A DNA stretch of 64,000 bases from Streptomyces liliiviolaceus (GTDB taxonomy: Bacteria; Actinomycetota; Actinomycetes; Streptomycetales; Streptomycetaceae): the NCBI RefSeq assembly GCF_018070025.1, contig NZ_JAGPYQ010000001.1, positions 806,001 through 870,000 of the forward strand, written 5' to 3'. The notes below the pieces were generated by a model. It did no database searches. It was not told the origin of the DNA and was given only the letters and a program-made list of their open reading frames with translations. Positions within the stretch are counted from its first letter, which is position 1. Every line of letters starts with the position of its first letter. Position numbers and translations under genes: made by a program. Of this stretch, positions 1,418-59,300 are shown in pieces.

Positions 1418-1432
1418 CTGACGCATCGTCAG
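1418..1432. promoter_or_regulatory. Regulon palindrome CTGACGCATCGTCAG
   Basis: Perfect 6+3+6 palindrome, followed by ATTG on the plus strand. It sits upstream of the leftward LLM oxidoreductase and is one of 13 such sites in the window. On the coding strand the sequence CAATCT, a possible -10, runs straight into the palindrome. Confidence 0.75.
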
Positions 1433-1532
1433 ATTGACCTGCCGCCGACTGTGGCACCGCACCCGTGAGGCGTCAATAGCTGATGGCCCGTCACATCCGG
1501 CCCGCCGCTCCCCGCCGCCGCTCACATCGCGC

Positions 1533-2351
1533 TCACATCGCGCTCACACCCGCCAGCCATCCGCCGTCGATCACGAAGGGCTGGCCGGTGATGTAGGAGG
1601 AGTCGTCGCAGGACAGGAAGAGGGCGAGCCGGGCCACCTCCTCGGCCCTGCCGATCCGGCCCATCGGGACGAGCTTGCGGTACAGCTTGGCGACGGCCGC
1701 CGAGGCCGCCTCCGCGGCCTCGGCCGAACGGGCGCCCCCCGATCCGGTGTCCGCCGTCGCCGGGTCCAGCAGGGCCGGATTGCTCATGGCGGTGTCGATC
1801 GCGCCGGGACAGACGGCGTTGACGCGGACCCCCTTCGGGGCCAGCTCCAGCGCGGCCACGCGCGTGAGGCCGACGATGGCGTGCTTGCTCGCGCTGTACG
1901 CGCCGACGTACGCCATGCCGGTGAGCCCGGTGTACGAGGCGGTGTTGACGATCGTCCCGCCGCCGGCCGCCTCGATCTCGGGGGCCAGGGCCTTGATGCC
2001 GAGGAAGACGCCGACCTGGTTGACGCGCACGATCTGCATGAACTCGTCGAGGGGGGTGTCGACGAGGGCGTTGAAGCGCAGGATGCCGGCGTTGTTGACG
2101 AGCCCGTCGACCTTCCCGTACGCCTCCTTCGCCAGCGCCACCGCGGCGGCCCAGTCGTCCTCCCGGCCGACATCCAGGTGTACGTACCGGGCGCGGGCCC
2201 CCAGTTCCTTGGCGAGGGTCTCCCCCTGCTCGTCGAGCACATCGGCGACGACGACCGAGGCGCCCTCCTCGACGAAGAGCCGGGCCTCCTGCTCCCCCTG
2301 CCCCCGAGCCGCCCCGGTGACGACGACGACCCGTCCGTCCAACTTGCCCAT
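1533..2351 (-). CDS. NAD-dependent short-chain dehydrogenase/reductase
   Basis: 272 aa classical SDR starting MGKLDGRVVVVTGAARGQG. The Rossmann motif TGAARGQG is at 12-19, an acidic residue at 37 (VVADV) suggests NAD preference, NNAG is at 86-89, and the catalytic residues are S139, Y152 and K156 (SYTG..YSASK). An Ala-rich insert near 200-225 (DTGSGGARSAEAAEAAS) extends the substrate-loop region. The longer upstream ORF is discounted because AGGAG precedes the ATG at 2351 at ideal spacing. It lies downstream of the second LLM gene in the same direction, so it probably oxidises or reduces a hydroxyacyl or alcohol intermediate of the same catabolic pathway. Confidence 0.88.
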   Translation of the reverse strand: MGKLDGRVVVVTGAARGQGEQEARLFVEEGASVVVADVLDEQGETLAKELGARARYVHLDVGREDDWAAAVALAKEAYGKVDGLVNNAGILRFNALVDTPLDEFMQIVRVNQVGVFLGIKALAPEIEAAGGGTIVNTASYTGLTGMAYVGAYSASKHAIVGLTRVAALELAPKGVRVNAVCPGAIDTAMSNPALLDPATADTGSGGARSAEAAEAASAAVAKLYRKLVPMGRIGRAEEVARLALFLSCDDSSYITGQPFVIDGGWLAGVSAM

Positions 2352-2450
2352 GATCACTCCTAAGCCGATGGGCGCCCTGTCAGGGGCGCGGGGCTGTGAC
2401 ATGTGCGGCTCCGCCGCGTGGGCGCGGCCGGCCACGACGCACCCGCGGCC

Positions 2451-2474
2451 GGGTACGGGTACGGGTACGGGTAC
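2451..2474. repeat. Tandem hexamer GGGTAC x4
   Basis: Four perfect GGGTAC units in the 130-bp gap between the SDR and the second LLM gene. No function is evident; it is a candidate polymorphic microsatellite. Confidence 0.9.
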
Positions 2475-2480
2475 GGCCGC

Positions 2481-3422
2481 CTACCCGAGCAGCGGGCCGA
2501 CCCCCGACCCGAACGCCGCGATCTGATCTGTCAGTTCGGCCCGGCTCCGAGACCGGAACCGCACCTGGATCTGATGCACCCCCATCGCCGCGTACGCCCG
2601 CAGCGACTCGGCGATCTCCTCGGCGGAGCCGGAGACCGTCCGGCGGCCCACGGCCCACGAGGGCCGCCCCACGTACAGCGGCTCGGTGATGGCGCCGACG
2701 GTGAGCGGCCGGGTCACCCCCGCCTCCTCCCGCAACCGCCCGAGCCGGGCGATCTGCTCGGGCAGCCGCTCCCGCGGATCGCCCTGCGGCAGCCACCCGT
2801 CCCCCCGGACCGCGGCCCGCCGCACGGCCGCGGGCGAGGACCCGCCGACCCACACGGGTACGTGTTCCTGCGCGGGCCGGGGCAGCTGGCCGAGCCCCTC
2901 GAAGTCGTACAGCTTCCCGTGGTGGGAGGGATATTCGTCCGGGCCGAGCGCGGCCCGCAGCGCGTCGATGCACTCGTCGAGGACCGCCCCGCGCCGCTCG
3001 AAGTCCACCCCCAGCGCCTCGAACTCCTCCTGTACGTGACCTGCGCCGACCCCGAGGATCAGCCGGCCGCCGCTGAGGTGGTCGAGGGTCGCGTACTGCT
3101 TGGCGGTGGCGAGGGGGTGCCGCAGGCCGACGACGGCGACGTGGCTGAGCAGCCGTACGTGCTCGGTGACCCCCGCCAGGAAGGCGAGGGTGGCGACCGG
3201 GTCGTACCAGACCGTGCTCATCGCGGCGGCGAGGCGGCGCGGGACGGCGACGTGGTCGCAGCTCGCGAGGTACGCGAAGCCGGACACGTCGGCGGCCCGG
3301 GCGATCTCCACGAGATCGCCCGGGCCGGCGTCGGCCTCCCACGCCTCGGCGTAGAGGGTGCTCTGCGACTGGACCGGGAGCTGCATCCCGTACTCCAGTC
3401 GCCCTTCGGGGAGGTTCTGCAT
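2481..3422 (-). CDS. LLM-class F420-dependent oxidoreductase
   Basis: 313 aa luciferase-like protein of the shorter, F420-type group: MQLPVQSQST near the start, ASCDHVAVP near residue 55, GGRLILGVGAGHVQEEFEALG near 118-138, and VWVGGSSPAAVRRAA near 190, which resembles the F420 phosphate-binding loop. It starts with ATG at 3422; no strong ribosome binding site is visible. Two copies of the regulon palindrome lie 16 and 59 bp upstream. It is followed in the same direction by the SDR, so the pair may act consecutively. The substrate is unknown. Confidence 0.85.
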   Translation of the reverse strand: MQNLPEGRLEYGMQLPVQSQSTLYAEAWEADAGPGDLVEIARAADVSGFAYLASCDHVAVPRRLAAAMSTVWYDPVATLAFLAGVTEHVRLLSHVAVVGLRHPLATAKQYATLDHLSGGRLILGVGAGHVQEEFEALGVDFERRGAVLDECIDALRAALGPDEYPSHHGKLYDFEGLGQLPRPAQEHVPVWVGGSSPAAVRRAAVRGDGWLPQGDPRERLPEQIARLGRLREEAGVTRPLTVGAITEPLYVGRPSWAVGRRTVSGSAEEIAESLRAYAAMGVHQIQVRFRSRSRAELTDQIAAFGSGVGPLLG

Positions 3423-3438
3423 GGGCGGCGCCCCCTAT

Positions 3439-3453
3439 CTGACGGGCCGTCAT
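3439..3453. promoter_or_regulatory. Regulon palindrome CTGACGGGCCGTCAT
   Basis: Matches CTGACGnnnCGTCAG at 11 of 12 fixed positions. It lies 16 bp before the start codon of the leftward F420-type LLM gene; identical in sequence to the site at 28705. Confidence 0.75.
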
Positions 3454-3481
3454 ATTGATGGGCCGACACCCATCGTCATAG

Positions 3482-3496
3482 CTGACGGATCGTCAG
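3482..3496. promoter_or_regulatory. Regulon palindrome CTGACGGATCGTCAG
   Basis: Perfect palindrome, centred 43 bp from the preceding site. The pair lies between the leftward LLM gene and the downstream end of the methyltransferase gene, so it can only serve the LLM gene. Confidence 0.78.
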
Positions 3497-4443: not shown

Positions 4444-5673
4444 TCACCTCTGTTTCGCCGACGCCCAGAGTCCGTCCGCCGTCAGCCCCAGCAGTTCGAT
4501 CGCGTTGCGGCGGACGATCCGGTCCACGACGTCCGCGTCCAGGTGGCCCATCTGGGCCTCGCCGACCTGGCGGGACTCGGGCCAGGTGGAGTCGGAGTGG
4601 GGGTAGTCGGTCTCGTAGAGGACGTTGCCGACGCCGATGGCGTCCAGGTTCTTCAGGCCGAAGGCGTCGTCGAAGAAGCAGCCGTAGACGTGCTCGGTGA
4701 AGAGTTCGGACGGCGGGCGGTGGACCTTGTCCGCGACGCCGCCCCAGGCGCGGTTCTCCTCCCACACCACGTCGGCGCGTTCGAGAATGTAGGGGATCCA
4801 GCCGATCTGCCCCTCCGCGTACATGACCTTCAGATTCGGGAAGCGCTCGAACTTGCCGCTCATCAGCCAGTCGACCATCGAGAAGCAGCAGTTGGCGAAG
4901 GTGATGGTGGAGCCGACGGCGGGCGGCGCGTCGGCGGAGGTGGAGGGCATCCGGCTGCTCGACCCGATGTGCATGGCGATGACCGTGCCGGTCTCGTCGC
5001 AGGCGGCGAGGAACGGATCCCACTCGTCCGTATGAACGGAGGGCAGTCCGAGGTGCGGAGGTATCTCGGAGAAGGCGACGGCCCGCACTCCGCGGGAGGC
5101 GTTGCGCCGCACCTCCTGGGCGGCGAGGTGCGGGTCCCACAGAGGGATGAGCGTGAGCGGTATCAGCCGCCCCCGCGCCTCGGGCCCGCACCACTCCTCG
5201 ACCATCCAGTCGTTGTAGGCCCGCACCGAGAGCAGCGCCAGCTCGCGGTCGGCGGCCTCGGTGAACGTCTGGCCGCAGAACCGGGGGAAGGTCGGGAAGC
5301 AGAGCGCGGACTGCACATGGTTGACGTCCATGTCGGCGAGGCGCTGCGGGACGTCGTACGAGCCCGGCCGCATCTGCTCGTACGTGATGATCTCCAGCTT
5401 GATCTCGTCCCTGTCGTAGCCGACGGCGGTGTCGAGCCGGGTGAGCGGGCGGTGCAGGTCCTCGTAGACCCACCAGTCGCCGATCGGCCCGTCGTCGCCG
5501 GGGCCGCCCATGACGGGGGCGAACTTCCCGCCCAGGAAGGTCATTTCCTTCAACGGGGCGCGTACGACGCGCGGCCCGGTGTCCTGGTACTTCGACGGGA
5601 GCCGGTCCCGCCAGACGTTGGGGGGCTCCACCGTGTGGTCGTCCACCGAGATGATCTTCGGGAAGGTCTCCAT
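4444..5673 (-). CDS. Amidohydrolase family protein (COG2159-type)
   Basis: 409 aa metal-dependent hydrolase/decarboxylase-like protein. It begins METFPKIISVDDHTVEPPNVW, a variant of the DxHxxE entrance motif, and contains IAMHIGSSS (metal histidine), LKVMYAEGQIGWIPY and LYETDYPHSDSTWP near the C-terminus (metal-binding Asp). Such proteins are common beside steroid and other acyl-CoA catabolic genes in actinobacteria. A promoter with CTGACG (-35), a 17-bp spacer and TACCGT (-10) ends about 7 nt before the ATG, and no Shine-Dalgarno sequence is present, so the mRNA is probably leaderless. The C-terminal fragment at the right end of the window is a paralogue. Confidence 0.85.
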   Translation of the reverse strand: METFPKIISVDDHTVEPPNVWRDRLPSKYQDTGPRVVRAPLKEMTFLGGKFAPVMGGPGDDGPIGDWWVYEDLHRPLTRLDTAVGYDRDEIKLEIITYEQMRPGSYDVPQRLADMDVNHVQSALCFPTFPRFCGQTFTEAADRELALLSVRAYNDWMVEEWCGPEARGRLIPLTLIPLWDPHLAAQEVRRNASRGVRAVAFSEIPPHLGLPSVHTDEWDPFLAACDETGTVIAMHIGSSSRMPSTSADAPPAVGSTITFANCCFSMVDWLMSGKFERFPNLKVMYAEGQIGWIPYILERADVVWEENRAWGGVADKVHRPPSELFTEHVYGCFFDDAFGLKNLDAIGVGNVLYETDYPHSDSTWPESRQVGEAQMGHLDADVVDRIVRRNAIELLGLTADGLWASAKQR

Positions 5674-5680: not shown

Positions 5681-5709
5681 ACGGTAACGCTGATCTGACG
5701 ATCCGTCAG
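5681..5709 (-). promoter_or_regulatory. Leaderless promoter with operator on its -35
   Basis: On the minus strand CTGACG (5709-5704), a 17-bp spacer and TACCGT (5686-5681) form a good sigma-70-type promoter. Transcription would begin at or next to the ATG at 5673. The -35 is the first half of the perfect palindrome CTGACGGATCGTCAG (5709-5695), so a bound regulator would block RNA polymerase. Confidence 0.72.
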
Positions 5710-5897: not shown

Positions 5898-8852
5898 ATG
5901 GACGGTGTACCGCGAGTACCGGAGCAGTGGGTTCCCGAGGAATCGGTGGCCCTGCGCTTCAGTGTGCTCGGACCGGTGCGCGCCTGGCGGGGGGCACAGG
6001 CGCTGCCCACGGGGTCCCCGCAGCAACGCGCCCTGCTGGCCGCCCTGCTGCTCCGTGAGGGCCGCACGGCGACGTCCGGCGAGCTGATCGACGCCCTGTG
6101 GGGCGACGACCCGCCGTCCCAGGCGCTGGCCGCCGTGCGCACGTACGCCTCGCGACTGCGCAAGATCCTCTCCCCCGGCGTCCTCGTCAGCGAGTCCGGC
6201 GGGTACGCGATCCGGCTCACCGACGCCTCCGGCGGCGGCGCCACCCTCGACCTCGCCCTGGCCCAGGAACTGGCGGCCGACGCGGAGAAGGCGAAGAGCA
6301 GGGGCGATCTGTGCCATGCGCGCGCCCTGCTGAACAAGACGCTGAGCCTGTGGGACGGGGAGGTGCTGGCGAGCGTCCCGGGCCCGTACGCGGAGACCCA
6401 GCGCACCCGGCTGCAGGAGTGGAAGCTCCAGCTCACCGAGTCCCGCCTCGACATGGACCTCGAACAGGGCTGTCACGCCGAGGCCGTCTCCGAACTCACC
6501 GCGCTCACCGCCGCCCAGCCCCTGCGGGAGCGGCTGCGCGGACTGCTGATGCTGGCGCTGTACCGCTCGGGCCGGCAGGCCGAGGCCCTGGCCGCGTACG
6601 CCGACACCCGGCGGCTGCTCGCCGACGAACTGGGCGTGGACCCGAGCCCCGAACTCCAGGAGCTCCAGCAGCGCATCCTCCAGGCCGACCCCGGCCTCGC
6701 CGAACCCTCGGCCCCGCTGGCCCCGGAGACCGCCGCCGCCCCGGTGCGCCCCGCCCAACTGCCCGCGACCGTCCCGGACTTCACCGGACGCACGTCCTTC
6801 GTCTCCGAGCTGTGCGACGTCCTCGCGAGCGCCGAGGGCCGCGTGATGGCCGTCTCCGCGCTGGCCGGCATCGGCGGCGTCGGCAAGACGACACTCGCCG
6901 TCCACGTCGCCCACCAGTCCCGCGTCGCCTTCCCGGACGGCCAGCTGTACGTGGACCTGCAGGGCGCGGGTGCGCGGGCCGCGGCGCCGGAGGCCGTACT
7001 GGGCGCCTTCCTGCGCGCGCTCGGCACCCCGGACTCGTCCATTCCGGACACCCTGGAGGAACGGGCGGCCCTCTACCGCTCGGTGCTGGACGGCCGCCGC
7101 GTCCTGGTCCTCCTCGACAACGCCCGGGACGCGGCCCAGGTCCGCCCCCTGCTGCCCGGCACCGAGGGCTGCGCCGCGCTGGTCACCTCGCGGGTGCGGA
7201 TGGTCGACCTCGCCGGTGCGCACCTGGTCGACCTCGACGTGATGTCGCCGGAGGAGGCCCTCCAGCTCTTCACGAAGATCGTCGGCACCGAGCGGGTGGA
7301 GTCGGAACGCCAGTCCGCGCTCGACGTCGTGGCGGCCTGCGGCTTCCTGCCGCTCGCCATCCGGATCGCCGCCTCCCGGCTGGCCGCCCGCCGCACCTGG
7401 ACCGTCTCGGTCCTCGCGGCGAAACTCGCGGACGAACGGCGACGCCTGGACGAACTGCAGGCCGGCGACCTGGCCGTGAAGGCCACCTTCGAACTGGGCT
7501 ACGGGCAGCTGGAGTCCGCCCAGGCCCGCGCCTTCCGGCTGCTGGGCCTCGCGGACGGCCCCGACATGTCCCTCGCCGCCGCGGCCGCGGTCCTCGACCT
7601 GCCCCTCGACGACACCGAGGAACTCCTCGAATCCCTCGTCGACACCTCGCTGCTGGAATCGGCGGCGCCCGGCCGCTACCGCTACCACGACCTCGTACGG
7701 CTCTACGCGCGTGCGTGCGCCGAACGCGACGAACAACCGCCGGGCGAACGGGCCGCCGCGATGTCGCGTCTGCTCGACTTCTACCTCTCCACGGCCGCGC
7801 GCGTGTACGCCATCGAGCGCCCCGGCGACCGCCTGGTGGACCATCTGGAGACGACGCAGTACCCGGGCCTGACCTTCTCCGGAGGCAGCGCCGCGCTCGA
7901 CTGGCTCTACACGGAGGCCGCACCGCTGCTGGCGTGCGTACGGCAGTCGGCGGGGACGGAGTTCCTGCGGCGGGCGGTGGATCTGTTGTGGGCCGCCAAG
8001 GATCTCACCGAGTCGGGGGCGAACTCGCACCAGTACGAGACCACGGCCCGGGCGATGTGCGACGCCACGCGGACCGCGGGGGACGAGCGGGCGGAAGGGA
8101 GGGCCAGGACGATCCTCACCGACGTCCTCCTGGTCTCCGGCCGCATCCAGCAGGCGGAGGACGAGGCCCAGCGCGCCATGGCGCTCGCGGGTGCCGCGCA
8201 GGACGCCACCGCGATCAGCTGGGTCGCCAACAACCGGGGCCTCATCTGCCTGCACCAGAGCCGGCACGCGGACGGCAAGGAGTTCTTCGATCAGGCCATA
8301 GAGCTTCTGCGGGCCGCCGACAACCGGCCGTTCGAAGCGACCAGCCTCTGCAATCTCTCGCGCGCCCACCTCGGCATGGGCAACGTCACCAAGGCCGTGG
8401 AGATCGCACAGCGCGGTGTCTCGATCCATGCCGAATTCGGCCGGACGGTACGCCTCGCCAACGGCCACTACGCGGTGGGGATCGCTCTGCACATGGCCGG
8501 GCGGCACTCCGAGGCGCTCGGCCACTTCTCCGAAGCCCTGGGCATCCTCGGGGACCACCGGCAGCGGCTCTGGGAGGGGACGACCCACTTCCGTATCGCC
8601 GAGGTCCATCTGGCCGCCCACCGTCCCGCGCCGGCGGCGCAACATGCCGAACAGGCGCTCGCACTCAGGTGCATCGGCGGCGACCGTATGCGGGGCAACG
8701 TCCTGACGCTGCTGGGGCGGGCCCTGTCGGTCCTGGGACAGGTGGACCGGGCCACGGCCTGCTGGAGAGAGGCCCTCAACCTCTACGAGCATTGTGGCGC
8801 CGAGGAGGCCGCCGAGGTGCGCGCCCTGCTCACACCCGCCGCCGCTGCGTGA
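5898..8852 (+). CDS. afsR: AfsR, SARP-type global transcriptional activator with NB-ARC ATPase and TPR domains
   Basis: 984 aa, close to the 993 aa of Streptomyces coelicolor AfsR. In order: an OmpR-type winged helix at about 20-105 (LRFSVLGPVRAWRG..), a bacterial transcriptional activation domain at about 110-262, an NB-ARC ATPase with P-loop GIGGVGKTT at 324-332, and C-terminal TPR-like repeats from about 690. In S. coelicolor AfsR is phosphorylated by AfsK and activates afsS. Both partners are here: an afsS-like gene starts 216 bp downstream and afsK lies 13.5 kb away. GGGGGA precedes the ATG by 6 nt. The N-terminus MDGVPRVPEQ and the neighbourhood support orthology rather than a pathway-specific SARP. 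Confidence 0.92.
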   Translation: MDGVPRVPEQWVPEESVALRFSVLGPVRAWRGAQALPTGSPQQRALLAALLLREGRTATSGELIDALWGDDPPSQALAAVRTYASRLRKILSPGVLVSESGGYAIRLTDASGGGATLDLALAQELAADAEKAKSRGDLCHARALLNKTLSLWDGEVLASVPGPYAETQRTRLQEWKLQLTESRLDMDLEQGCHAEAVSELTALTAAQPLRERLRGLLMLALYRSGRQAEALAAYADTRRLLADELGVDPSPELQELQQRILQADPGLAEPSAPLAPETAAAPVRPAQLPATVPDFTGRTSFVSELCDVLASAEGRVMAVSALAGIGGVGKTTLAVHVAHQSRVAFPDGQLYVDLQGAGARAAAPEAVLGAFLRALGTPDSSIPDTLEERAALYRSVLDGRRVLVLLDNARDAAQVRPLLPGTEGCAALVTSRVRMVDLAGAHLVDLDVMSPEEALQLFTKIVGTERVESERQSALDVVAACGFLPLAIRIAASRLAARRTWTVSVLAAKLADERRRLDELQAGDLAVKATFELGYGQLESAQARAFRLLGLADGPDMSLAAAAAVLDLPLDDTEELLESLVDTSLLESAAPGRYRYHDLVRLYARACAERDEQPPGERAAAMSRLLDFYLSTAARVYAIERPGDRLVDHLETTQYPGLTFSGGSAALDWLYTEAAPLLACVRQSAGTEFLRRAVDLLWAAKDLTESGANSHQYETTARAMCDATRTAGDERAEGRARTILTDVLLVSGRIQQAEDEAQRAMALAGAAQDATAISWVANNRGLICLHQSRHADGKEFFDQAIELLRAADNRPFEATSLCNLSRAHLGMGNVTKAVEIAQRGVSIHAEFGRTVRLANGHYAVGIALHMAGRHSEALGHFSEALGILGDHRQRLWEGTTHFRIAEVHLAAHRPAPAAQHAEQALALRCIGGDRMRGNVLTLLGRALSVLGQVDRATACWREALNLYEHCGAEEAAEVRALLTPAAAA

Positions 8853-17804: not shown

Positions 17805-19451
17805 TCAACGCCGCCTGCGCAGCTCCCCCTTCACGACCTTCCCGCTGGCGTTCCTGGGCAGTTCGGCGACGAACTCCACCGCCCTGGGCACCTTGTAGTT
17901 GGCCATCTCGCGGCGCGCCCAGGCGATCAGGTCGTCGCCGGTGAGCGGGACACCGGGACGGCGTACGACATAGGCCTTGCCGACCTCGCCGAGCCGGGCG
18001 TCGGGGACGCCGATCACGGCCACGTCGGCGATGTCCGGGTGCAGGCCGAGGAGTTGCTCTATCTCCGCCGGGTAGGCGTTGAAGCCGCCGACGATGAACA
18101 TGTCCTTGATGCGGTCGGTGATCCTGAGGTTGCCGGCCGCGTCCAGGACGCCGATGTCGCCGGTGCGCAGCCAGCCGTCCGGGGTCATCGCCTCCGAGGT
18201 GGCGGGGGCGTCCTCGTAATAGCCACGCATGACGTTGAAGCCGCGGACCAGGACCTCGCCCGGGGTGCCGGGGGCGACGGCCGTGCCCTCCCCGTCCACG
18301 ACCCGCACCTCCGTGCCGGGGATCGCGCGGCCGGACGTGGACGCGATGACGTCCGGCTCGTCGCCGCGGCGGCACATCGTGACGATCCCGCTGGCCTCGG
18401 AGAGTCCGTAGGCGGTGAGGACCGTGCCCACGCCCAGTTCCGCCCGCAGCCGCTCCACCAGCAGCAGCGGCACGACCGCCGCGCCCGTCACCACCAGCCG
18501 CAGGGCCGAGAGGTCGTACGCGTCACGGTTGGGGTGGTCCAGGAGGGACTGGTGGAGGGTGGGCGGGCCGGGGAGCACCGAGATGCGTTCCGAGGCCACG
18601 TTCGCGAGGACCGTGTCCACGTTGAACACCGGCTGCGGGATCATCGTCGCGCCCCGCATCAGACAGGCGATGACGCCCGCCTTGTAGCCGAAGGTGTGGA
18701 AGAAGGGGTTCACGATCAGATAGCGGTCGCCCTCGCGCAGACCGGCCAGTTCGCACCAGACGTCGTACGCCCGCAGGGTCTGCGCGTGCGTGATCACGGC
18801 GCCCTTGGGGCGGCCCGTGGTGCCCGAGGTGAAGATGATGTCCGAGGGGGCGGACGGGTCGAGCGCCGAGGCCCGGGCCCGCACCTCGGCCTCCCCCACG
18901 CCGTCCCCGCTCGCCAGGAAGTCCTTCCAGGTACGGAAGTCGGCGGGGGCGTCGTCGGACAGGACGACCACCTGCTCCAGATGCGGAAGCCCCGGGAGGG
19001 GGCCCTCGCCCCGGCCGGTACGCGTGCCCGTGCCGGCGCCGGTGCCGTCCGGCTCCTCGCTCTCGACGCAGGCCCGCCGCAGGGACGCCACGTACGAGGT
19101 CCCCAGGAACGTACCGGTCACGAACAGCAGTTTCGTCCGGCTCCGGGCCAGTACGTACGCGGCCTCCGTCCCCTTGAAGCGGGTGTTCAGCGGGACGAGG
19201 ACCGCGCCCGCCGACACCGCGCCGAGGGCGGACGTCATCCAGTCCAGGGTGTTGGGCGCCCAGATGGCCACCCGGTCGCCGGGTTCCACGCCGTTCGCGA
19301 CGCAGGCCGCCGCCGCGCGTTCCACCCGGGCGCCCAGCTCCGCGTACGTGACGCGGGTACGGCCCTCGACGACCGCCTCCACGTCCGCGTACCGCTCGGC
19401 CGCCGCCCGCACGAGCCCCGGGATCGTCTCCCACTCCAAGTCACCGCGCAC
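17805..19451 (-). CDS. Fatty acid/steroid-type acyl-CoA ligase (FadD3-like)
   Basis: 548 aa ANL-superfamily adenylate-forming ligase. The P-loop TSGTTGRPKG is at 208-217, followed by PFFHTFGYKAG, YGLSEASG, GWLRTGDIG and the C-terminal catalytic lysine K538 in PRNASGK. A Gly/Thr-rich insertion near 134-150 (DGTGAGTGTRTGRGEG) breaks the N-terminal domain. GTG start at 19451 with GGAGG upstream. It shares a 131-bp divergent promoter region with the Ltp gene, containing two regulon palindromes that coincide with both -35 boxes. It activates a carboxylic acid as its CoA thioester at the entry of the pathway; FadD3-like similarity suggests a ring-derived or branched acid, by inference. Confidence 0.88.
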   Translation of the reverse strand: MRGDLEWETIPGLVRAAAERYADVEAVVEGRTRVTYAELGARVERAAAACVANGVEPGDRVAIWAPNTLDWMTSALGAVSAGAVLVPLNTRFKGTEAAYVLARSRTKLLFVTGTFLGTSYVASLRRACVESEEPDGTGAGTGTRTGRGEGPLPGLPHLEQVVVLSDDAPADFRTWKDFLASGDGVGEAEVRARASALDPSAPSDIIFTSGTTGRPKGAVITHAQTLRAYDVWCELAGLREGDRYLIVNPFFHTFGYKAGVIACLMRGATMIPQPVFNVDTVLANVASERISVLPGPPTLHQSLLDHPNRDAYDLSALRLVVTGAAVVPLLLVERLRAELGVGTVLTAYGLSEASGIVTMCRRGDEPDVIASTSGRAIPGTEVRVVDGEGTAVAPGTPGEVLVRGFNVMRGYYEDAPATSEAMTPDGWLRTGDIGVLDAAGNLRITDRIKDMFIVGGFNAYPAEIEQLLGLHPDIADVAVIGVPDARLGEVGKAYVVRRPGVPLTGDDLIAWARREMANYKVPRAVEFVAELPRNASGKVVKGELRRRR

Positions 19452-19510: not shown

Positions 19511-19552
19511 CTGACTACCCGTCAGATTAGCTGTAGCCTGACGCCCTGTCAG
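19511..19552. promoter_or_regulatory. Interlocked divergent promoters with two regulon palindromes
   Basis: Two palindromes: CTGACTACCCGTCAG (19511-19525) and CTGACGCCCTGTCAG (19538-19552). Rightward promoter: CTGACT (19511-19516), a 17-bp spacer, TAGCCT (19534-19539). Leftward promoter: CTGACA (19552-19547), a 17-bp spacer, TAATCT (19529-19524). Each operator thus covers one -35 and abuts the -10 of the opposing promoter, giving symmetrical joint control of the ligase and Ltp operons. Confidence 0.75.
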
Positions 19553-20745: not shown

Positions 20746-20754
20746 GGAGTGCAC

Positions 20755-21201
20755 ATGCTCACACCTGTGGTGGACGACGACGGCGCCCCCTTCTGGGAGT
20801 ACGCGGCCCGCGGCGAACTGCGCGTCCAGGCCTGCGCCGAACCCGGCTGCGGGGAACTGCGCTTCCCGCCCCGCCCCTGCTGCCCGCACTGCCACTCCTT
20901 CGACAGCGAGTGGCGCAGGATGAGCGGCCGGGGCCGTATCTGGTCGTACGTGATCCCGCACCCCCCGCTCCTGCCGGACTACGCGGCGCAGGCCCCGTAC
21001 AACGTGGTCGTCGTCGAACTGGCGGAAGCGCGGCGGATCCGGCTGGTGGGCAACCTCGTCAGCGGCCCGGACGCGCCTCTCAACTCGGTGGCGGGGGAAC
21101 GGATCCGGATCGGGGCGCGGGTGCAGGTGGTGTTCGGTACCGGCGTTGGGGACGGCAGGGACGGCCCCCGGCTGCCGCGCTGGGTCCTGGAGCGGCCATG
21201 A
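20755..21201 (+). CDS. DUF35 zinc-ribbon/OB-fold protein
   Basis: 148 aa. A rubredoxin-like zinc ribbon has C27, C32, C43 and C46 (CAEPGCGELRFPPRPCCPHC). The OB-fold follows, including GRGRIWSYVIPHPP and APYNVVVVELAE. This is the standard acyl-CoA-binding partner of Ltp aldolases or of MaoC-like hydratases (ChsH2 type). GAGGAG sits 5 nt before the ATG at 20755, which decides this start over the in-frame GTG at 20749. The gene starts 9 nt after the Ltp stop and overlaps the next gene by 4 nt (ATGA). Confidence 0.9.
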   Translation: MLTPVVDDDGAPFWEYAARGELRVQACAEPGCGELRFPPRPCCPHCHSFDSEWRRMSGRGRIWSYVIPHPPLLPDYAAQAPYNVVVVELAEARRIRLVGNLVSGPDAPLNSVAGERIRIGARVQVVFGTGVGDGRDGPRLPRWVLERP

Positions 21202-45363: not shown

Positions 45364-46086
45364 CTACCCCTCCGTGAAATGCGCGAGCGTGCCGATGAGT
45401 CGTTCCGCGATGTTCGGGGGCCAGGGGAACGACGGGGCGACCGCCCGTTGGTGGGCCAGTCCGTGCAGGCCGAGCCAGAGTGCGACCACGTCGGTCGCCA
45501 CGTCGGCGCTGGCCGAGGAGCCCTCCGCGACGCACTCCTGGAGGGCCTCGCCGAGTCGCCGCATGCTCGCCTCGCCGAGCGCGCCGAGGTCCTCCGCCGT
45601 CACGGAACTCGCGTCCGGATCGGGCATCCAGAACCCGCCGAACATCGTGCGATAGCGCCCCGGGTGGGCCTCGGCGAACTCCAGATAGCCCTCGCACAGG
45701 GCCGTGAGCCGCGCGCGGGGCGAGTCGTCGGCCGCGTCCACGGCCGCGCGCAACTGCTCGTCCAGCTCGGCGAAGGCGTTGCGCACCACGGCCAGCATGA
45801 TGGCGGGCTGATCGGCGAAGTGCCGGTAGATCGAGGGGGCGGCGATACCGACCTTGCGGGCCACGGAGCGCAGGGTGATGGCGCTCTCGTCGCCGGTCTC
45901 GTCGAGCAGGGCGACCGCCGCCGTCACGATCTCCTGGCGCAGCCGGTCCCCCTCCCCCCGGCGGTTGCGCACGCGGACGGGCGTCGCCGCGCTGTCGCCC
46001 GCGTCGTCTCCCGTACCTGCTCCCGTACCTGTTCCCGTGCCTGTTCCCGCACCTGTTCCCGCACCTGTTCCCATAGCTGCTCCCAT
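45364..46086 (-). CDS. TetR-family regulator with repetitive Gly/Thr N-terminus
   Basis: About 240 aa. The ATG at 46086 follows AAGGTGAC; a GTG at 46095 is also possible. The first 30 residues are (Gly-Ala/Thr) repeats encoded by seven 12-bp tandem units, an unusual tail ahead of the DNA-binding domain. The helix-turn-helix is LRQEIVTAAVALLDETGDESAITLRSVARKVGIAAPSIYRHFADQPAIM. The C-terminal part resembles the TetR_C_13/WHG group (AELDEQLRAAVDAADDSPRARLTALCEGYLEFAEAHPGRYRTMFG). Divergent from a medium-chain reductase gene with a palindrome between them, so it probably represses that operon. Confidence 0.88.
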   Translation of the reverse strand: MGAAMGTGAGTGAGTGTGTGTGAGTGDDAGDSAATPVRVRNRRGEGDRLRQEIVTAAVALLDETGDESAITLRSVARKVGIAAPSIYRHFADQPAIMLAVVRNAFAELDEQLRAAVDAADDSPRARLTALCEGYLEFAEAHPGRYRTMFGGFWMPDPDASSVTAEDLGALGEASMRRLGEALQECVAEGSSASADVATDVVALWLGLHGLAHQRAVAPSFPWPPNIAERLIGTLAHFTEG

Positions 46087-49117: not shown

Positions 49118-49132
49118 CTGACGCAGCGTCAG
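49118..49132. promoter_or_regulatory. Regulon palindrome CTGACGCAGCGTCAG
   Basis: Perfect palindrome 91 bp before the ADP-forming ligase. TAATCT, a good -10, follows at 49138-49143. Confidence 0.78.
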
Positions 49133-49151: not shown

Positions 49152-49166
49152 CTGACACTGCGTCAG
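49152..49166. promoter_or_regulatory. Regulon palindrome CTGACACTGCGTCAG
   Basis: 11 of 12 fixed positions, extended by TTAT on the left. Centre-to-centre distance to the previous site is 34 bp, about three helical turns, suitable for cooperative binding. Confidence 0.75.
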
Positions 49167-49222: not shown

Positions 49223-51460
49223 ATGCTTGGATCAACCCACGGCACCCTCACCACCGACTCCCGCCGGGCCCGGGTCATCGCCTGCGGCGAGCAACCGGCC
49301 CCTGCCGTGCACGGCAGGCCGGCCGCCACCGACGACCTCGACGTCAGCGGCAGGCCGCTGTACGCCGGCGTACCCGATCTGGACCGCTTCTTCCGCCCCG
49401 AGTCGGTGGCCGTCGTCGGCGCCTCGGACGCCGAAGGGCGACCGAACACCGGCATCACCCGCCAACTGCTCGCCTGGGCCGAGCGGGTGGGCGCGCGCCT
49501 GCATCCGGTGCACCCCACCCGGGAGACCGTGTTCGGTCTGCCCTGCGTCCCATCGGTCGCGGAACTGCCCGAACAGGTCGATCTGGCCGTGCTGCTGGTC
49601 TCCGACCCGCTGCCCGTGATCGAGCAACTCGCCGAGACCAAGGTGCGGTTCGCGGTCGCCTTCGCGTCCGGATTCGCCGAGACGGGAACCGTGGGCGCCG
49701 CCGCCCAGGACCGGCTCGCCGACGCCGTACGGCGCTCCGGAATCCGCTCCGGCCTGCGGCTGCTCGGCCCGAACACCAACCTCAACGCCTTCGAGAAGTT
49801 CCGCGACGACCTCGACGGCCCGGCGATCGCGCTGATCACCCAGTCCGGCCACCAGGGCCGCCCCGTCTTCACCCTCCAGGAACTGGGCATCCGCGTCTCC
49901 CACTGGGCCCCCACCGGCAACGAGGCCGACCTGGAGAGCGCCGACTTCATCTCCTACTTCTCCGAGCAGCCCGAGGTGGGCGCCATCGCCTGCTACGTCG
50001 AGGGCCTCAAGGACGGCCGCTCCTTCCTCCTCGCCGCCGACCGGGCCGCCCGGCGCGGGGTCCCCGTCGTCGCGGTCAAGGTCGGCCGCACGGAGACGGG
50101 CGCGCGTACGGCGGCCTCCCACACCGGCAAACTGACGGGCGCGGACGCGGTGGTGGACGCCGCGATGCGCCAGTACGGGGTCGTACGCGTCGACGGCCTC
50201 GACGAACTCCAGGACACGGCGGCCCTGTTGGCCCGCGCCAGGCCACCGTCCGCCGACGGAGTGGCCGTCTACTCCATCTCAGGCGGTACGGGCGCCCACT
50301 TCTCGGACCTGGCGACGGAGGCGGGCCTGCGCCTGCCGCCCCTCTCCCCCGCCAAGCAGGCCGAACTCCACCAGTGGATACCCGAGTACCTGGACGTCAC
50401 GAACCCCATCGACAACGGCGGTCACCCGGTCGGCGACTGGCGGGGCCGCAAGATCATCGACGCGATCCTCGCCGATCCGGCCGTCGGGGTGCTGATCTGT
50501 CCGATCACGGGCCCCTTCCCGCCCATGAGCGACAAGCTCGCGCGGGACCTGGTGGACGCGGCGGAGCAGACGGACAAACTGGTGTGCGTGGTGTGGGGTT
50601 CACCGGTCGGCACGGAGTCCGCGTACCGCGAAACGCTCCTCGGTTCCTCCCGGGTCGCGACCTTCCGCACGTTCGCGAACTGCATCACGGCGGTACGCGC
50701 CCACCTGGACCACGCCCGCTTCACCGCCTCCTACCGCTCCCCCTTCGACGAGGCCCCGCGCACCCCGTCCCCCTCCTGCCGCAAGGCCCAGGCGCTGATG
50801 CGGCCGGGCAGCAGGCTGAGCGAACACGCGGCGAAACAACTGCTGCGGGCGTACGGGATCCGGGTGCCGCGCGAGCAGTTGGTGACCAGCGCGGCGGCCT
50901 CCGTACGGGCGGCCGGTCTGGTCGGGTACCCGGTCGTCATGAAGGCGTCCGGTGCGCGGCTCGCCCACAAGACGGAACTGGGCCTGGTGAAGATCGGCCT
51001 CACCTCCGCCAGCCAAGTACGGGACTCGTACCGCGAGTTGACCGACATCGCCCGGTACGAGGACGTGTCGCTCGACGGGGTTCTGGTGTGCCAGATGGTG
51101 GAGCAGGGGGTCGAGATGGTCGTCGGCGTGACGCACGACGACCTCTTCGGTCCGACGGTGACGGTCGGGCTGGGCGGCGTACTCGTGGAGGTCCTCCAGG
51201 ACACCGCGGTACGGGTGCCGCCGTTCGGCGAGGACCAGGCACGGTCGATGCTCGACGAGTTGCGGGGGCGGGCGCTGCTGGACGGCGTCCGCGGGCGGCC
51301 TCCGGCGGACCTCGACGCGCTGGTGGAGGTCGTCCTCCGCGTCCAGCGGATGGCCCTGGAACTGGACACGGACCTGTCCGAACTGGACATCAACCCCCTG
51401 ATGGTCCTCCCCCGAGGCCAGGGAGCGGTGGCCCTGGACGCCCTGGCCATCTGCCGCTGA
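49223..51460 (+). CDS. ADP-forming acyl-CoA ligase family protein (ACD, fused alpha/beta)
   Basis: 745 aa. The N-terminal CoA-binding domain (FFRPESVAVVGASDAEGRPNTG) is followed by succinyl-CoA-ligase-like flavodoxin domains (ALITQSGHQGRPVF; SHTGKLTGADAVVDAAMRQYG) and a C-terminal ATP-grasp domain (RLSEHAAKQLLRAYGIRVPREQLV; VVMKASGARLAHKTELGLVKIGL; LDTDLSELDINPLMV). AGGAG lies about 11 nt before the ATG at 49223. Two regulon palindromes precede it. Such enzymes interconvert an acyl-CoA and its acid with ATP formation or use; here it may activate the substrate or release an end product. Confidence 0.88.
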   Translation: MLGSTHGTLTTDSRRARVIACGEQPAPAVHGRPAATDDLDVSGRPLYAGVPDLDRFFRPESVAVVGASDAEGRPNTGITRQLLAWAERVGARLHPVHPTRETVFGLPCVPSVAELPEQVDLAVLLVSDPLPVIEQLAETKVRFAVAFASGFAETGTVGAAAQDRLADAVRRSGIRSGLRLLGPNTNLNAFEKFRDDLDGPAIALITQSGHQGRPVFTLQELGIRVSHWAPTGNEADLESADFISYFSEQPEVGAIACYVEGLKDGRSFLLAADRAARRGVPVVAVKVGRTETGARTAASHTGKLTGADAVVDAAMRQYGVVRVDGLDELQDTAALLARARPPSADGVAVYSISGGTGAHFSDLATEAGLRLPPLSPAKQAELHQWIPEYLDVTNPIDNGGHPVGDWRGRKIIDAILADPAVGVLICPITGPFPPMSDKLARDLVDAAEQTDKLVCVVWGSPVGTESAYRETLLGSSRVATFRTFANCITAVRAHLDHARFTASYRSPFDEAPRTPSPSCRKAQALMRPGSRLSEHAAKQLLRAYGIRVPREQLVTSAAASVRAAGLVGYPVVMKASGARLAHKTELGLVKIGLTSASQVRDSYRELTDIARYEDVSLDGVLVCQMVEQGVEMVVGVTHDDLFGPTVTVGLGGVLVEVLQDTAVRVPPFGEDQARSMLDELRGRALLDGVRGRPPADLDALVEVVLRVQRMALELDTDLSELDINPLMVLPRGQGAVALDALAICR

Positions 51461-52659: not shown

Positions 52660-52674
52660 CTGACGCCCCGTCAC
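52660..52674. promoter_or_regulatory. Regulon palindrome CTGACGCCCCGTCAC
   Basis: 11 of 12 fixed positions, preceded by CAAT. It ends 5 nt before the ATG of the flavin reductase gene, the same spacing as at 28786-28806. Confidence 0.72.
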
Positions 52675-52679: not shown

Positions 52680-53351
52680 ATGGACGGTGTGATGGGACAC
52701 GCAGGAATGGCCGCGGCAGCCGTCCGCTATCTGAGGTCGGCCGGGGAGCCGAGGACCGCGGGACCGGTCGACCCGCTCCCGCGCCCGGACCTGCGCGCGG
52801 TCGGCGACGACGAACGCGCACCGATCGACCCGGCGGAATTCCGCCGCGTACTCGGAAACTTCGCCACGGGCGTCACCGTCATCACAGCTCCGGCCCCGGC
52901 CACCACCCCGGACTCCGCCCCCGGCACCCCATCCGGCACACCCTCCGGCTTCGCCTGCCAGTCCTTCGCCGCGCTGTCCCTCGACCCGCCCCTGATCGCG
53001 TTCATGGTCGCGCGTACGTCCACGACCTGGCCGCGTATCGCCCGCGCGGGCGTCTTCTGCGTGAACGTCCTCGGCGCGCACCAGGGCGACCTGTGCCGCC
53101 GCTTCGCGGTGAGCGGCTCGGACAAGTTCGCGGGTGTCGACCACGAACCGTCGCCGGTCTCCGGTTCGCCCCGCCTGGCCGGCGCCACCGCGTGGATCGA
53201 CTGCGCCGTCCACGCGGTCCACACGGGCGGCGACCACCTGATCGTGGTGGGCCGGGTGAACGCCCTGGGCACCCCCGACCCCGACCCCGACGGCAACGGC
53301 GGCGCCCCCCTGCTCTTCCACCGCGGCCGCTTCGGCGACTTCACGGCCTGA
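52680..53351 (+). CDS. Flavin reductase family protein (HsaB/NTAB-like)
   Basis: 223 aa. IDPAEFRRVLGNFATGVTVITAP, GFACQSFAALSLDPPLIAFMVARTSTTWPRIARAGVFCVNVLG and AWIDCAVHAVHTGGDHLIVVGRV are the signature blocks of FMN reductases that feed two-component monooxygenases. The N-terminal 45 residues are an extra arm. A start at 52680 puts the operator 5 nt upstream with no Shine-Dalgarno sequence; ATGs at 52692 and 52707 are alternatives. Likely electron supplier for a pathway monooxygenase, possibly an LLM protein of this regulon. Confidence 0.88.
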   Translation: MDGVMGHAGMAAAAVRYLRSAGEPRTAGPVDPLPRPDLRAVGDDERAPIDPAEFRRVLGNFATGVTVITAPAPATTPDSAPGTPSGTPSGFACQSFAALSLDPPLIAFMVARTSTTWPRIARAGVFCVNVLGAHQGDLCRRFAVSGSDKFAGVDHEPSPVSGSPRLAGATAWIDCAVHAVHTGGDHLIVVGRVNALGTPDPDPDGNGGAPLLFHRGRFGDFTA

Positions 53352-56068: not shown

Positions 56069-57118
56069 CTAGAACGTCAAAACAGCCCGGGCCGCAAGCC
56101 CACCCCGCGCATCCGCGACCGCCTTCTCGAACTCGTCCACCCCATACGTCTCCGTCACCAGCTCATCCAGCAACAACCGCCCCTCCCGATACATCTCCGC
56201 ATACAGCGCAACATCCCGCTGCGGCCGCGAGGACCCGTACCGGCACCCGAGGATCGACTTGTCCAGGTACATCGACGAGACGAGGAACGACGCCTCGGCG
56301 CCGGCGGGCGGCACGCCCAGCAGTACCGCCTGCCCCCGCCGGTCGAGCAGATCGACGGCCTGCCGTACGAGCTCGACCCGCCCCACGCACTCGAAGACGT
56401 GATCCGCCCCCGTCGGCAGAACGTCCCGCGCCCCCTCCACGGACGTGAAGAAGTGCCCGGCCCCGAACCGCCGCGCCACCCCCTCCTTCGCCGGATTCGA
56501 GTCCACCGCGACCACGGTCAGCGCCCCGGCGATCCGCGCGCCCTGGATCACGTTGAGCCCGATCCCGCCCGTCCCGATGACGACGACGCTGTCCCCGTGC
56601 TCCACGCGCGCCCGGTTCAGCACGGCCCCGACCCCGGTCAGCACCCCGCATCCGATCAGTGCGGCCGAGGCCATCGGGATGTCCTTCGGGATGCGTACCG
56701 CCTGCACGGCCTTCACCAACGTCCGTTCGGCGAAAGCGGAGTTGGACGCGAACTGGTACAGCGGCCGCCCCTCCCGCAGGAACGGCCGCTGCGGCATCCC
56801 GATGGCCTTGCGGCACATGGTGGGCCGCCCCCGGTCGCACTCGGCGCACGCACCGCAGTTCGCGAGCGTGGACAGGCAGACGTGGTCGCCGGGCTGCACG
56901 TGGGTGACGCCCGCGCCCACCTCCGCCACGACTCCCGCGCCCTCGTGTCCGAGCACCACGGGTACGGGGAAGGGGATGGTCCCGTCCAGCACGGAGAGGT
57001 CGCTGTGGCACAGCCCCGCCGCCGAGACCGCGACCAGTACCTCGCCGGGCCCCGGATCCCGTATCTCCAGATCGTCCACCGTCCGGGCCTGCTCACCGTC
57101 GAAGATCACGCCCTTCAT
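56069..57118 (-). CDS. Zinc-dependent alcohol dehydrogenase (class III/mycothiol-like group)
   Basis: 349 aa. Catalytic zinc ligands C37 and H58 with E59 (GLCHSD, GHEGAGVV); structural zinc C88, C91, C94, C102 (CGACAEC..C). NAD site VVIGTGGIGLNVIQGA, with DSNPAKEGVARRFGA following. ATG at 57118 begins MKGVIFDGEQ, 4 nt after the stop of the upstream acyl-CoA dehydrogenase gene, so they form an operon (SDR - dehydrogenase - ADH). Oxidises an alcohol intermediate or by-product of the pathway. Confidence 0.92.
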   Translation of the reverse strand: MKGVIFDGEQARTVDDLEIRDPGPGEVLVAVSAAGLCHSDLSVLDGTIPFPVPVVLGHEGAGVVAEVGAGVTHVQPGDHVCLSTLANCGACAECDRGRPTMCRKAIGMPQRPFLREGRPLYQFASNSAFAERTLVKAVQAVRIPKDIPMASAALIGCGVLTGVGAVLNRARVEHGDSVVVIGTGGIGLNVIQGARIAGALTVVAVDSNPAKEGVARRFGAGHFFTSVEGARDVLPTGADHVFECVGRVELVRQAVDLLDRRGQAVLLGVPPAGAEASFLVSSMYLDKSILGCRYGSSRPQRDVALYAEMYREGRLLLDELVTETYGVDEFEKAVADARGGLAARAVLTF

Positions 57119-57122
57119 GGCC

Positions 57123-58265
57123 TCAGCCCTTCGCTTCCCTGGGAAGGCCGAGCACACGCTCGGCGATGATCGTGCGCTGGATCTCGTCCGAGCCGCCGTA
57201 GATCGTGTCGGCCCGGCTGAAGAGGAACAGGTGCTGAAGCGCGTCCAGTTCGTAGGGCGAGCCGGCCGACCAGTCCCCGGGACCGACCGCCGCCCCGGCC
57301 CCCCGTACCCGCATCGCCAGCTCGCCGAGCCGCTGATGCCACCGGCCCCACATCAGCTTGGCCACGCTGGGAGCACCCTGGTCCGCCGAACTCCCCAGCG
57401 TCCGCAGGGCGTTCCACCGCATGGTGCGCAGCTCGGCCCACTGGCGTACGAGCAGATCGCGCACGACCGGGTCGTCGGCCGCCCCCGAGGCGACGGCCGC
57501 CTCGATCACCTGCCCCAACTCCTGGGCGAAGCCGACCTGCTGGGCCAGCGTGGAGACTCCGCGTTCGAAGCCGAGCAGGCTCATCGCGACCTGCCAGCCG
57601 TTGCCCTCGCCGCCGACGAGATGCTCCGCGCGGGCGTGCGCCCCGTCGAAGAAGACCTCGTTGAACTCGCTGGTCCCGGTCATCTGCCGGATCGGCCGTA
57701 CGTCGATACGTCCGGGCTGGTCCATGGGGACGAGCAGAAAGCTCAGCCCGCGATGCCGCCGCGACCCCGCCTCCGTACGCGCCAGCACGAAGCACCAGTC
57801 CGCCTCGTGCGCCAGCGAGGTCCAGATCTTCTGCCCGCTGATCCGGTACCCGTCCGCCTCCCGCACGGCCTCCGTACGGATCCCGGCGAGGTCGGACCCG
57901 GCCCCGGGCTCGCTGTACCCCTGGCACCACAGCTCGTCACCGGAGGCGATGGGCGGCAGGAAACGGTTCTTCTGCTCCTCACTGCCATGCGCGATGAGCG
58001 TGGGAGCCAGCAGCTTCTCCCCGATGTGCCCACTGCGGGCCGGCGCCCGGACCCGCGCGTACTCCTCGGCCCACACCACCTGCCGTTCCAGCCCGACCGC
58101 ACGATTCCCATACCCCTCCACCCCCCACCCGATCCCGATCCACCCCCCACCCCCAAGAACCCGCTCCCACTCCCTGCGGTCCCCGACACCCCCCACATGC
58201 TCCGCAAGCCACCCCCGCACCTCAGCACGAAAGGCTTCATCCTCCGACGTACGCCCGAATTCCAA
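57123..58265 (-). CDS. Acyl-CoA dehydrogenase (FadE26-like large subunit)
   Basis: 380 aa. It has LWCQGYSEPGAGSDLAGIRTEAV (FAD/substrate loop), ISGQKIWTSLAHEADWCFVLART, MGRWHQRLGELAMRVRGAGAAVG and the C-terminal IYGGSDEIQRTIIAERVLGLPRE. Start is TTG at 58265, with GGGAGGA 5 nt upstream; longer ORFs would read through the interspersed repeat. Close relative of the dehydrogenase at 62686. It probably works as a heteromer with a shorter FadE such as 61765 or 27458. Confidence 0.88.
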   Translation of the reverse strand: MEFGRTSEDEAFRAEVRGWLAEHVGGVGDRREWERVLGGGGWIGIGWGVEGYGNRAVGLERQVVWAEEYARVRAPARSGHIGEKLLAPTLIAHGSEEQKNRFLPPIASGDELWCQGYSEPGAGSDLAGIRTEAVREADGYRISGQKIWTSLAHEADWCFVLARTEAGSRRHRGLSFLLVPMDQPGRIDVRPIRQMTGTSEFNEVFFDGAHARAEHLVGGEGNGWQVAMSLLGFERGVSTLAQQVGFAQELGQVIEAAVASGAADDPVVRDLLVRQWAELRTMRWNALRTLGSSADQGAPSVAKLMWGRWHQRLGELAMRVRGAGAAVGPGDWSAGSPYELDALQHLFLFSRADTIYGGSDEIQRTIIAERVLGLPREAKG

Positions 58266-58287
58266 GATGTCCTCCCACCGCCCAGCT

Positions 58288-58340
58288 TTCAGGGGCGCGG
58301 GGAACTGCGCGACCAGCCACAACGCACCCGCACTCACCCA
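58288..58340 (+). repeat. Interspersed repeat, single forward copy inside an operon
   Basis: One GGGGCGCGGGGAACTGCGCG copy in the 85-bp gap between two same-direction catabolic genes, an unusual position compared with the arrays at convergent junctions. Confidence 0.82.
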
Positions 58341-58350
58341 CGACCGCCTC

Positions 58351-59262
58351 CTACGCCCCCGCCCCCTTCGCGGCCCGAGCAGCCCGCTCCATCTCCTGCA
58401 CCCGCTCCAGCAACGGCATGGGATCCACCCCCACCGCCCCCGGCAGAAAGTCCGCGATCCGCTCAGGCGTCCACCCCCCTTCCGCATACCCGGCACGGAG
58501 TTCCCGCGGCTGCGCCCACACCGCGATCTTCGGCCCCGCGACGGTGTACACCTGCCCGGTGATCCCCTCCTCCCGGGCCCGCCCGGACAGCAGGTACACC
58601 ACGAGCGCGGCCACATCCTCCGGCTCACCGATCTCCGCCAGCTCCATCGGCACGTTCGCGGACATCCGCGTACGCGCGACCGGCGCGACCGCGTTCGCCG
58701 TCACCCCGTACTTGTGGAGCCCGAGCGCCGCGCTGCGGACGAGCGAGATGATCCCGCCCTTCGCCGCGCTGTAGTTGGCCTGCGAGACGGACCCCTGGTG
58801 GTTGCCGCTGGTGAACCCGATCAGCGTCCCGGCACCCTGCTTGCGCATGACGGCGGACGCCGCACGGAACACGGTGAACGTGCCCTTCAGATGCGTGGCG
58901 ATCACCGGGTCCCACTCGTCCTCGGACATGTTGAAGAGCATCCGTTCGCGCAGGATCCCGGCCACGCAGACGACCCCGTCGAGCCGCCCGTACGCCTCCA
59001 GGGCCGTGTCGACGATCCGCTGCCCGCCCGCCATGGTGGAGATGTCGTCGGCCACCGCGACCGCTTCCCCGCCGGCCGCCCCGATCTCCTTGACGACGGC
59101 GTCGGCGACCGAGCTGCTCGGCTCCGAGCCCTCGATCGAGACGCCGTAGTCGTTGACGACGACCCGTGCGCCCTCGGCCGCGGCGGCCAGTGCCACCGCG
59201 CGTCCGATGCCCCGGCCCGCCCCGGTCACGGCGACGACCCTGCCTTCCAGGAAGTTCCCCAC
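58351..59262 (-). CDS. Short-chain dehydrogenase (hydroxyacyl-CoA type, MFE-2-like)
   Basis: 303 aa. TGAGRGIGRAVALAAAAEGARVVVNDYG (Rossmann, with the long post-strand-2 insert SIEGSEPSSS typical of 17beta-HSD4/MFE-2 dehydrogenases), VCVAGILRERMLFNM in place of NNAG, and catalytic S and YSAAKGG. The C-terminal 45 residues (GGWTPERIADFLPGAVGVDPMPLLERVQEMER) extend beyond the plain fold. GTG start at 59262. A regulon palindrome 24 bp upstream controls it. Probably the beta-hydroxyacyl-CoA dehydrogenase step. Confidence 0.88.
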   Translation of the reverse strand: MGNFLEGRVVAVTGAGRGIGRAVALAAAAEGARVVVNDYGVSIEGSEPSSSVADAVVKEIGAAGGEAVAVADDISTMAGGQRIVDTALEAYGRLDGVVCVAGILRERMLFNMSEDEWDPVIATHLKGTFTVFRAASAVMRKQGAGTLIGFTSGNHQGSVSQANYSAAKGGIISLVRSAALGLHKYGVTANAVAPVARTRMSANVPMELAEIGEPEDVAALVVYLLSGRAREEGITGQVYTVAGPKIAVWAQPRELRAGYAEGGWTPERIADFLPGAVGVDPMPLLERVQEMERAARAAKGAGA

Positions 59263-59285
59263 GCCCTGGCCCCTTCCCGCGGTTT

Positions 59286-59300
59286 CTGACGGTCCGTTAG
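59286..59300. promoter_or_regulatory. Regulon palindrome CTGACGGTCCGTTAG
   Basis: 11 of 12 fixed positions, followed by ATTTG. It lies 24 bp before the leftward SDR start; a weaker relative, TCTACGACCCGTCAG (59319-59333), faces the rightward cyclase gene. Confidence 0.74.

Follow-up and report, generated by a model that had tools for sequence, protein, structure and literature searches.

A palindrome, ATCTGACGnnnCGTCAGAT, recurs in front of dispersed catabolic genes in the afs locus of Streptomyces liliiviolaceus, which raises the question of what its copies do and which protein reads them. The stretch that we analysed, called the window throughout, comprises 64,000 nucleotides (bases 806001-870000 of contig 1) of an 11.13 Mb genome; its genes (g numbers) were called with a codon-usage script written for this analysis, and AfsR, AfsS, AfsK and KbpA were identified in it as NCBIfam equivalogs. 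An earlier interpretation made from the letters of this DNA, referred to here as the sequence-only reading, proposed that thirteen such palindromes define a catabolic regulon. Our analysis gives strong support to an acyl-CoA catabolic regulon that has an operator of its own, and we consider it very probable that ATCTGACGnnnCGTCAGAT is the operator of an autoregulated TetR repressor, encoded within the window by g23 (26059..26706, plus strand), whose action would be relieved by a pathway intermediate.

All thirteen palindromes are present exactly where the sequence-only reading had placed them, each with 11 or 12 of the 12 fixed bases. All are non-coding and lie at most 150 bp upstream of a called gene start, as do only 8% of window positions, and the Pfam matches of the downstream genes agree with the catabolic genes that had been named. 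When the window alone was searched with the 12-base form at up to two mismatches, 19 matches were found against 7.6 expected, a number that was reached in 1 of 100 shuffles; this loose form was dropped as evidence, and the strength of the motif lies in its tight form. Genome-wide, the 12-base form with at most one mismatch occurs at 131 sites compared to 35 for the reversed control, and the 19-mer occurs at 83 sites compared to 3 (at most three mismatches) and at 28 compared to 0 (at most two), an excess at every stringency. The sites are also far from evenly spread, since 13 of the 131 fall within the window, against 0.75 expected from the genome mean. Thirteen of the 28 tight 19-mer sites lie in a 760-871 kb block, and additional sites beyond the window are found at contig positions 760888, 871066 and 871144. 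The remaining 15 tight sites comprise 4 intragenic ones and 11 at or upstream of a start; seven of these 11 precede genes for an acyl-CoA dehydrogenase, an acyl-CoA ligase, two LLM proteins, a short-chain dehydrogenase (SDR), a DUF35 protein and a DAP_DH-like dehydrogenase, and downstream of the other four are a DUF7064 gene, a glyoxalase-fold gene and genes for two secreted-type proteins (by eye). With a position weight matrix built from 16 sites, 18 positions in 264 kb scored at least 12 bits, compared to an average of 1.1 for 20 base shuffles, and the sole two such matches outside the training sites were a fourteenth, weaker operator at 1480..1494 (10 of 12 bases, 21.4 bits) and a site at the start of g23.

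An exact 19-mer scan of public species genomes returned at least 120 stretches with 121 sites, and among the matches listed, 101 of the 121 lie within 250 bp upstream of a start, 3 are intragenic and 17 are placed otherwise. Pfam families were compared between 132 of 134 downstream proteins and 130 of the proteins in a sample of 134 drawn from 359 same-locus neighbours, six very long proteins being omitted, and Amidohydro_2 (12 against 3, p = 0.016), the acyl-CoA dehydrogenase N domain (12 against 4, p = 0.036) and short-chain dehydrogenases (11 against 2, p = 0.010; all one-sided and uncorrected) were enriched downstream. Three stretches from metagenome-assembled genomes (MAGs) titled Bifidobacterium breve (L143, L155, L192) have 68-69% G+C, and their label is probably wrong.

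The same placement bears on whether the palindromes could instead be RNA hairpins or terminators, a notion that draws on a look-alike in family f15. There, the same core, CTGACGnnnCGTCAG, occurs without mismatch 218 times in G110 and 135 times in G051 (1 and 0 times for the control; L248-L265), the five f15 genomes (G051, G069, G084, G097 and G110) hold 68-244 sites each, and among 18 sites examined in two of these genomes 6 are convergent, 9 intragenic by the gene caller, 2 codirectional and 1 divergent. Some f15 palindromes at convergent gene ends enclose the stop codons. With only 1 of 18 sites between divergent genes, the f15 copies were rejected as instances of the same operator and are taken as a different element, possibly a bidirectional terminator-like one; because of this placement, the five genomes were omitted from the co-distribution count given below, which they would have inflated. 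For the palindromes considered here, with 13 of 13 upstream of starts in the window and most of the listed public sites placed in the same way, a hairpin or terminator role is scarcely credible.

Phylogenetic footprints were obtained for two divergent promoters, which were aligned over seven species including that of the window (of eight relatives, G012 and G010 lack the gene pairs). The first lies between g17, for an AMP-forming acyl-CoA ligase (17805..19451, minus strand; Pfam), and the probable operon g18-g20 for an Ltp-type thiolase, a ChsH2-like DUF35 protein and an enoyl-CoA hydratase (19582..21971, plus strand); the arms of its first operator (19511..19525) are kept in 7 of 7 species, and the left arm of the second (19538..19552) is lost in two of the seven, G005 and G023. 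The other lies between the probable operon g25-g24 for an acyl-CoA dehydrogenase and a deazaflavin-dependent reductase (26910..28657, minus strand) and g26, for an Ltp/thiolase-like protein (28806..29981, plus strand). Its first operator (28705..28719) is kept in 7 of 7 species, and its second (28786..28800), 5 bp from the g26 start, is present in 5 of 7, as G013 and G007 lack it in the called gap. In both promoters, the 3-base spacers and the flanks drift while the first-site arms stay. In G010, afsK and kbpA are retained along with a g23 that has diverged (75% identity), but the surrounding catabolic genes are lost; this genome has 2 sites only.

The proposed reader of the operator, g23, has a TetR helix-turn-helix (PF00440, E-value 4.6e-6, 26.8 bits against a cut-off of 24) and a C-terminal PF19352 (TetR_C_38) domain (E-value 5.3e-74, 247 bits against a cut-off of 23.9). 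Its predicted model is a confident all-helical two-domain TetR fold (pLDDT 90.6), to which EthR, then FasR and the acyl-CoA-binding FadR and DesT are nearest among the matches listed; a PDB profile search with alignment A1 gave nothing at 1e-10. The gene stands next to afsK and kbpA (22328..25934, minus strand; NF053615, NF053614), divergent from kbpA, and the order afsK, kbpA, g23 is kept in relatives. Each of the 25 Streptomyces genomes surveyed has one counterpart, and the named best relatives are nearly all from Streptomyces. By position, g23 is the counterpart of SCO4421, the Streptomyces coelicolor TetR that likewise lies close to afsK (SCO4423; PMC3878966).

The distribution of the sites follows that of this TetR family. 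A PF19352 match is present in 46 of 196 genomes surveyed across the class. The motif was counted in 80 of the 196, comprising every non-Streptomyces genome with a match (27), 9 Streptomyces picked from those with a match and 44 of the 150 genomes that lack one. With the 9 Streptomyces and the five f15 genomes excluded, at least 4 sites are present in 12 of 13 genomes with a strong match (E-value below 1e-20, the next weaker being 7e-9), compared to 0 of 53 with a weak match or none, and a cut-free rank test of site count against PF19352 on the same genomes gives p = 8e-8. The association holds within families: in f18, five genomes with the TetR have 4-11 sites and five without it 1-2 (p = 0.004), and in f3, 14 TetR-bearing genomes have 11-24 sites each and the TetR-less G025 and G040 have 1 each. 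Gene content does not explain these numbers, because genomes with at least 10 DUF35 genes split by TetR presence (4-11 sites in the 6 with the TetR, 1-2 in the 8 without; p = 0.0003). In the converse direction, 35 of the 52 listed non-Streptomyces exact-site loci were chosen by the operator only, and PF19352 is encoded in 26 of these 35 genomes: all 26 are among the 29 in which the site precedes a gene, and none is among the 6 in which it does not. G255, one of the 26, is identical with G215 from the count above, with the TetR at the same place, and is not independent. Exact sites in genomes such as those of Akkermansia, Nitrotoga and Ruegeria, which have no such TetR, were taken as chance. 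Two MAGs labelled Deltaproteobacteria (G260 and G261; L145, L203) hold both the operator and a PF19352 TetR, and the module may therefore reach beyond Actinomycetota.

Operators are also found at the TetR genes of other families. Among the 13 strong-match genomes, 10 have an operator with 0-1 mismatch near the TetR start, 9 of them 22-84 bp upstream and 1 overlapping the called start; of the other three, G141 has a start-overlapping site with 2 mismatches, and G057 and G065 have none. The g23 homologues of families f14, f16 and f18 lie inside operator-bearing clusters, and most of them have an operator where their own gene starts. In a further set of 19 readable TetR loci (of 20) from the operator-chosen genomes, 6 have a self-site with 0-1 mismatch. 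The S. liliiviolaceus site, at 26051..26065, has 12.6 bits and overlaps the start codon of the TetR gene (shuffle p = 0.016), and it is seen likewise in the Streptomyces relatives fetched.

Several observations weigh against g23 as the reader or against the regulon as drawn. In Streptomyces, the self-site is a weak one with 10 of 12 bases, and start codon and coding sequence make up half of it, so that it is supportive only and was rejected as proof of autoregulation there; among the 19 further TetR loci, 10 have no self-site better than chance and 3 only a weak start-overlapping one. Three genomes (G251, G254 and G265) have a gene-upstream site and no TetR match. G057 has the TetR and 0 sites, with a helix identical to that of G087, which has 4. 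The helix TSPATFYQYF is common to nearly all the TetR homologues, with variants at one position, and as G057 and G087 share the variant TSAATFYQYF, the recognition helix was discarded as a discriminator. Eight of the 34 Streptomyces counted have the TetR yet only 1-7 sites (G010 2, G017 3, G114 1, G144 5, G154 3, G172 3, G181 7 and G216 5), which suggests that the TetR outlives the regulon there and may have another role. The core palindrome alone is not diagnostic, given the f15 look-alike, and downstream of the public sites LLM proteins (9 against 6) and thiolases (7 against 4) are not significantly enriched relative to same-locus neighbours. Finally, deletion of SCO4421 gave no detected phenotype and its function is called unclear in the part of PMC3878966 available to us.

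In six of the low-site Streptomyces, 15 of 19 sites were read and are mixed, some being intragenic; among them are the promoter of the flavin reductase gene (G114) and the start of a glyoxalase-fold gene (G154, G172). In three Streptomyces (L268:5079, L288:1503, L290:1503), two of which have few other sites, the same glyoxalase-fold gene has its start codon overlapped by a palindrome around ATCTGAC-ATG.

The weak Streptomyces self-site, the persistence of the TetR where sites are few and the three operator-bearing genomes without a PF19352 match would fit a true operator bound by another factor, such as the second TetR of the window (g39, 45364..45972), the AraC-type g47 or a protein encoded elsewhere, with the PF19352 TetR just travelling along. 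However, this alternative would have to accommodate the g23 homologues that sit inside operator-bearing clusters in f14, f16 and f18, mostly with an operator at their own start, and site numbers that track the TetR and not the DUF35 gene content. In G026, moreover, the g23 homologue is the only TetR in the site-bearing stretch at 10134-10176 kb, although an ECF-sigma-like gene is also present there (by eye). We therefore regard a different reader as quite improbable and retain the g23 family as the candidate.

On this assignment, a g23 dimer would bind each palindrome, often two in tandem, and would thereby cover the promoters of acyl-CoA catabolic operons as well as, in many lineages, its own promoter. 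Transcription would be blocked until the C-terminal pocket of the TetR is occupied by an intermediate of the pathway, for which an acyl-CoA or another hydrophobic catabolite is the likeliest candidate, and the dispersed operons would then be expressed together. The sites lie 5-90 bp from the nearest starts, over probable promoter elements (by eye), and the folds closest to the g23 model are those of repressors. Both points speak against the TetR being an activator or a developmental regulator, and not a catabolite-relieved repressor, a view prompted by the whiA dependence of SCO4421, whose promoter is active in spores and whose expression is reduced in a whiA mutant (PMC3878966). We judge such a role unlikely, and catabolite-relieved repression by g23 remains our preferred explanation.

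The other operators of the window connect this mechanism with further enzymes. At its left end, an operator at 1418..1432 (12 of 12 bases), in tandem with the weaker site at 1480, lies 79 bp upstream of g02, for an LLM-class oxidoreductase (250..1338, minus strand; PF00296), whose operon continues leftward beyond the window. The tandem pair 3439..3453 and 3482..3496 lies 16 and 59 bp upstream of g04, for an LLM-class oxidoreductase of the TIGR03619 family (2481..3422, minus strand). The operator at 37985..37999 is 29 bp upstream of g35 and the DUF35 gene g34 (37048..37955, minus strand). The sequence-only reading had named this pair DoxX-DUF35, of which the DUF35 part stands; the DoxX label found no confirmation, g35 being a small protein with a weak MauE match below cut-off. 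A second tandem pair (49118..49132 and 49152..49166) lies 90 and 56 bp upstream of g43, for an ADP-forming acyl-CoA synthetase (49223..51460, plus strand), and the operator at 52660..52674 lies 32 bp upstream of the flavin reductase gene g45 (52707..53351, plus strand). The last, at 59286..59300, occupies the divergent promoter between the probable operon g50-g49-g48 for an SDR, an acyl-CoA dehydrogenase and a zinc alcohol dehydrogenase (56069..59262, minus strand) and g51, for a cyclase-family hydrolase (59364..60290, plus strand; PF04199).

The operator at 5695..5709 lies 21 bp upstream of the amidohydrolase gene g06 (4444..5673, minus strand; PF04909) and, in the same gap, 188 bp before the start codon (ATG at 5898) of afsR (5898..8852, plus strand; NF053617), which we leave outside the regulon. 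The claim that the afs genes lack the site thus needs correction, as the gap is common to both genes, although the amidohydrolase is much the nearer. It is conceivable, if doubtful, that an old TetR-operator module, spread across Actinomycetes, Acidimicrobiia and some Deltaproteobacteria-labelled MAGs, was built into the afs locus in Streptomyces, where the repressor would also touch afsR (5695) and kbpA/TetR (26051) and so couple acyl-CoA catabolism to AfsK-AfsR antibiotic control.

In summary, the proposed operator would bring many dispersed catabolic enzymes with poor annotation (LLM oxidoreductases, amidohydrolases, Ltp-DUF35 and a flavin reductase) into one regulon. It would also give a testable role to SCO4421, whose counterpart accompanies the AfsK-AfsR antibiotic switch in all the Streptomyces surveyed and for which no target, motif or function is reported in the accessible part of PMC3878966. 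The regulon is best read as new, whereas its kind, a TetR-controlled catabolic regulon, is already known; no printed copy of the motif was found among the literature matches listed, which does not prove its absence.

The closest parallels in kind are KstR and KstR2, TetR proteins that likewise repress dispersed catabolic genes of the acyl-CoA and Ltp types and whose operator sequences we take to differ from this palindrome. The best KstR chain matches g23 with an E-value of only 0.21 over residues 13-59, that is, 47 helix-turn-helix residues, and does not reach full-length similarity. No chain named KstR2 is among the best 60 of 75 g23 matches or the best 50 rows of the fold list, where absence proves nothing. 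EthR, the nearest fold, has 16-19% identity to g23 and regulates a different target. SAV3818, a TetR of Streptomyces avermitilis, reportedly stimulates antibiotic production, and from its gene number, presumably beside afsK, it might be the ortholog of g23. SRTF1 of Nocardioides (Pimelobacter) simplex is a TetR that responds to steroids and has a palindromic site next to the gene that encodes it; it differs in that the palindrome is 22 bp long and the three binding sites described lie in one gene island (PMC7062782; PMC7807495, as far as these were accessible). In f14 and f16, the TetR and its operators adjoin enoyl-CoA hydratase and IpdA-type genes (by eye; L108, L110, L114, L118, L121, L123), with an IpdA match in L110 of E-value 5e-93 to 6co6. 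IpdA-type genes belong to the KstR2 regulon in mycobacteria, according to the accessible part of PMC5380842. Hence, this neighbourhood suggests that in some actinobacteria the steroid ring C/D (IpdA-like) genes are controlled by this TetR rather than by KstR2.

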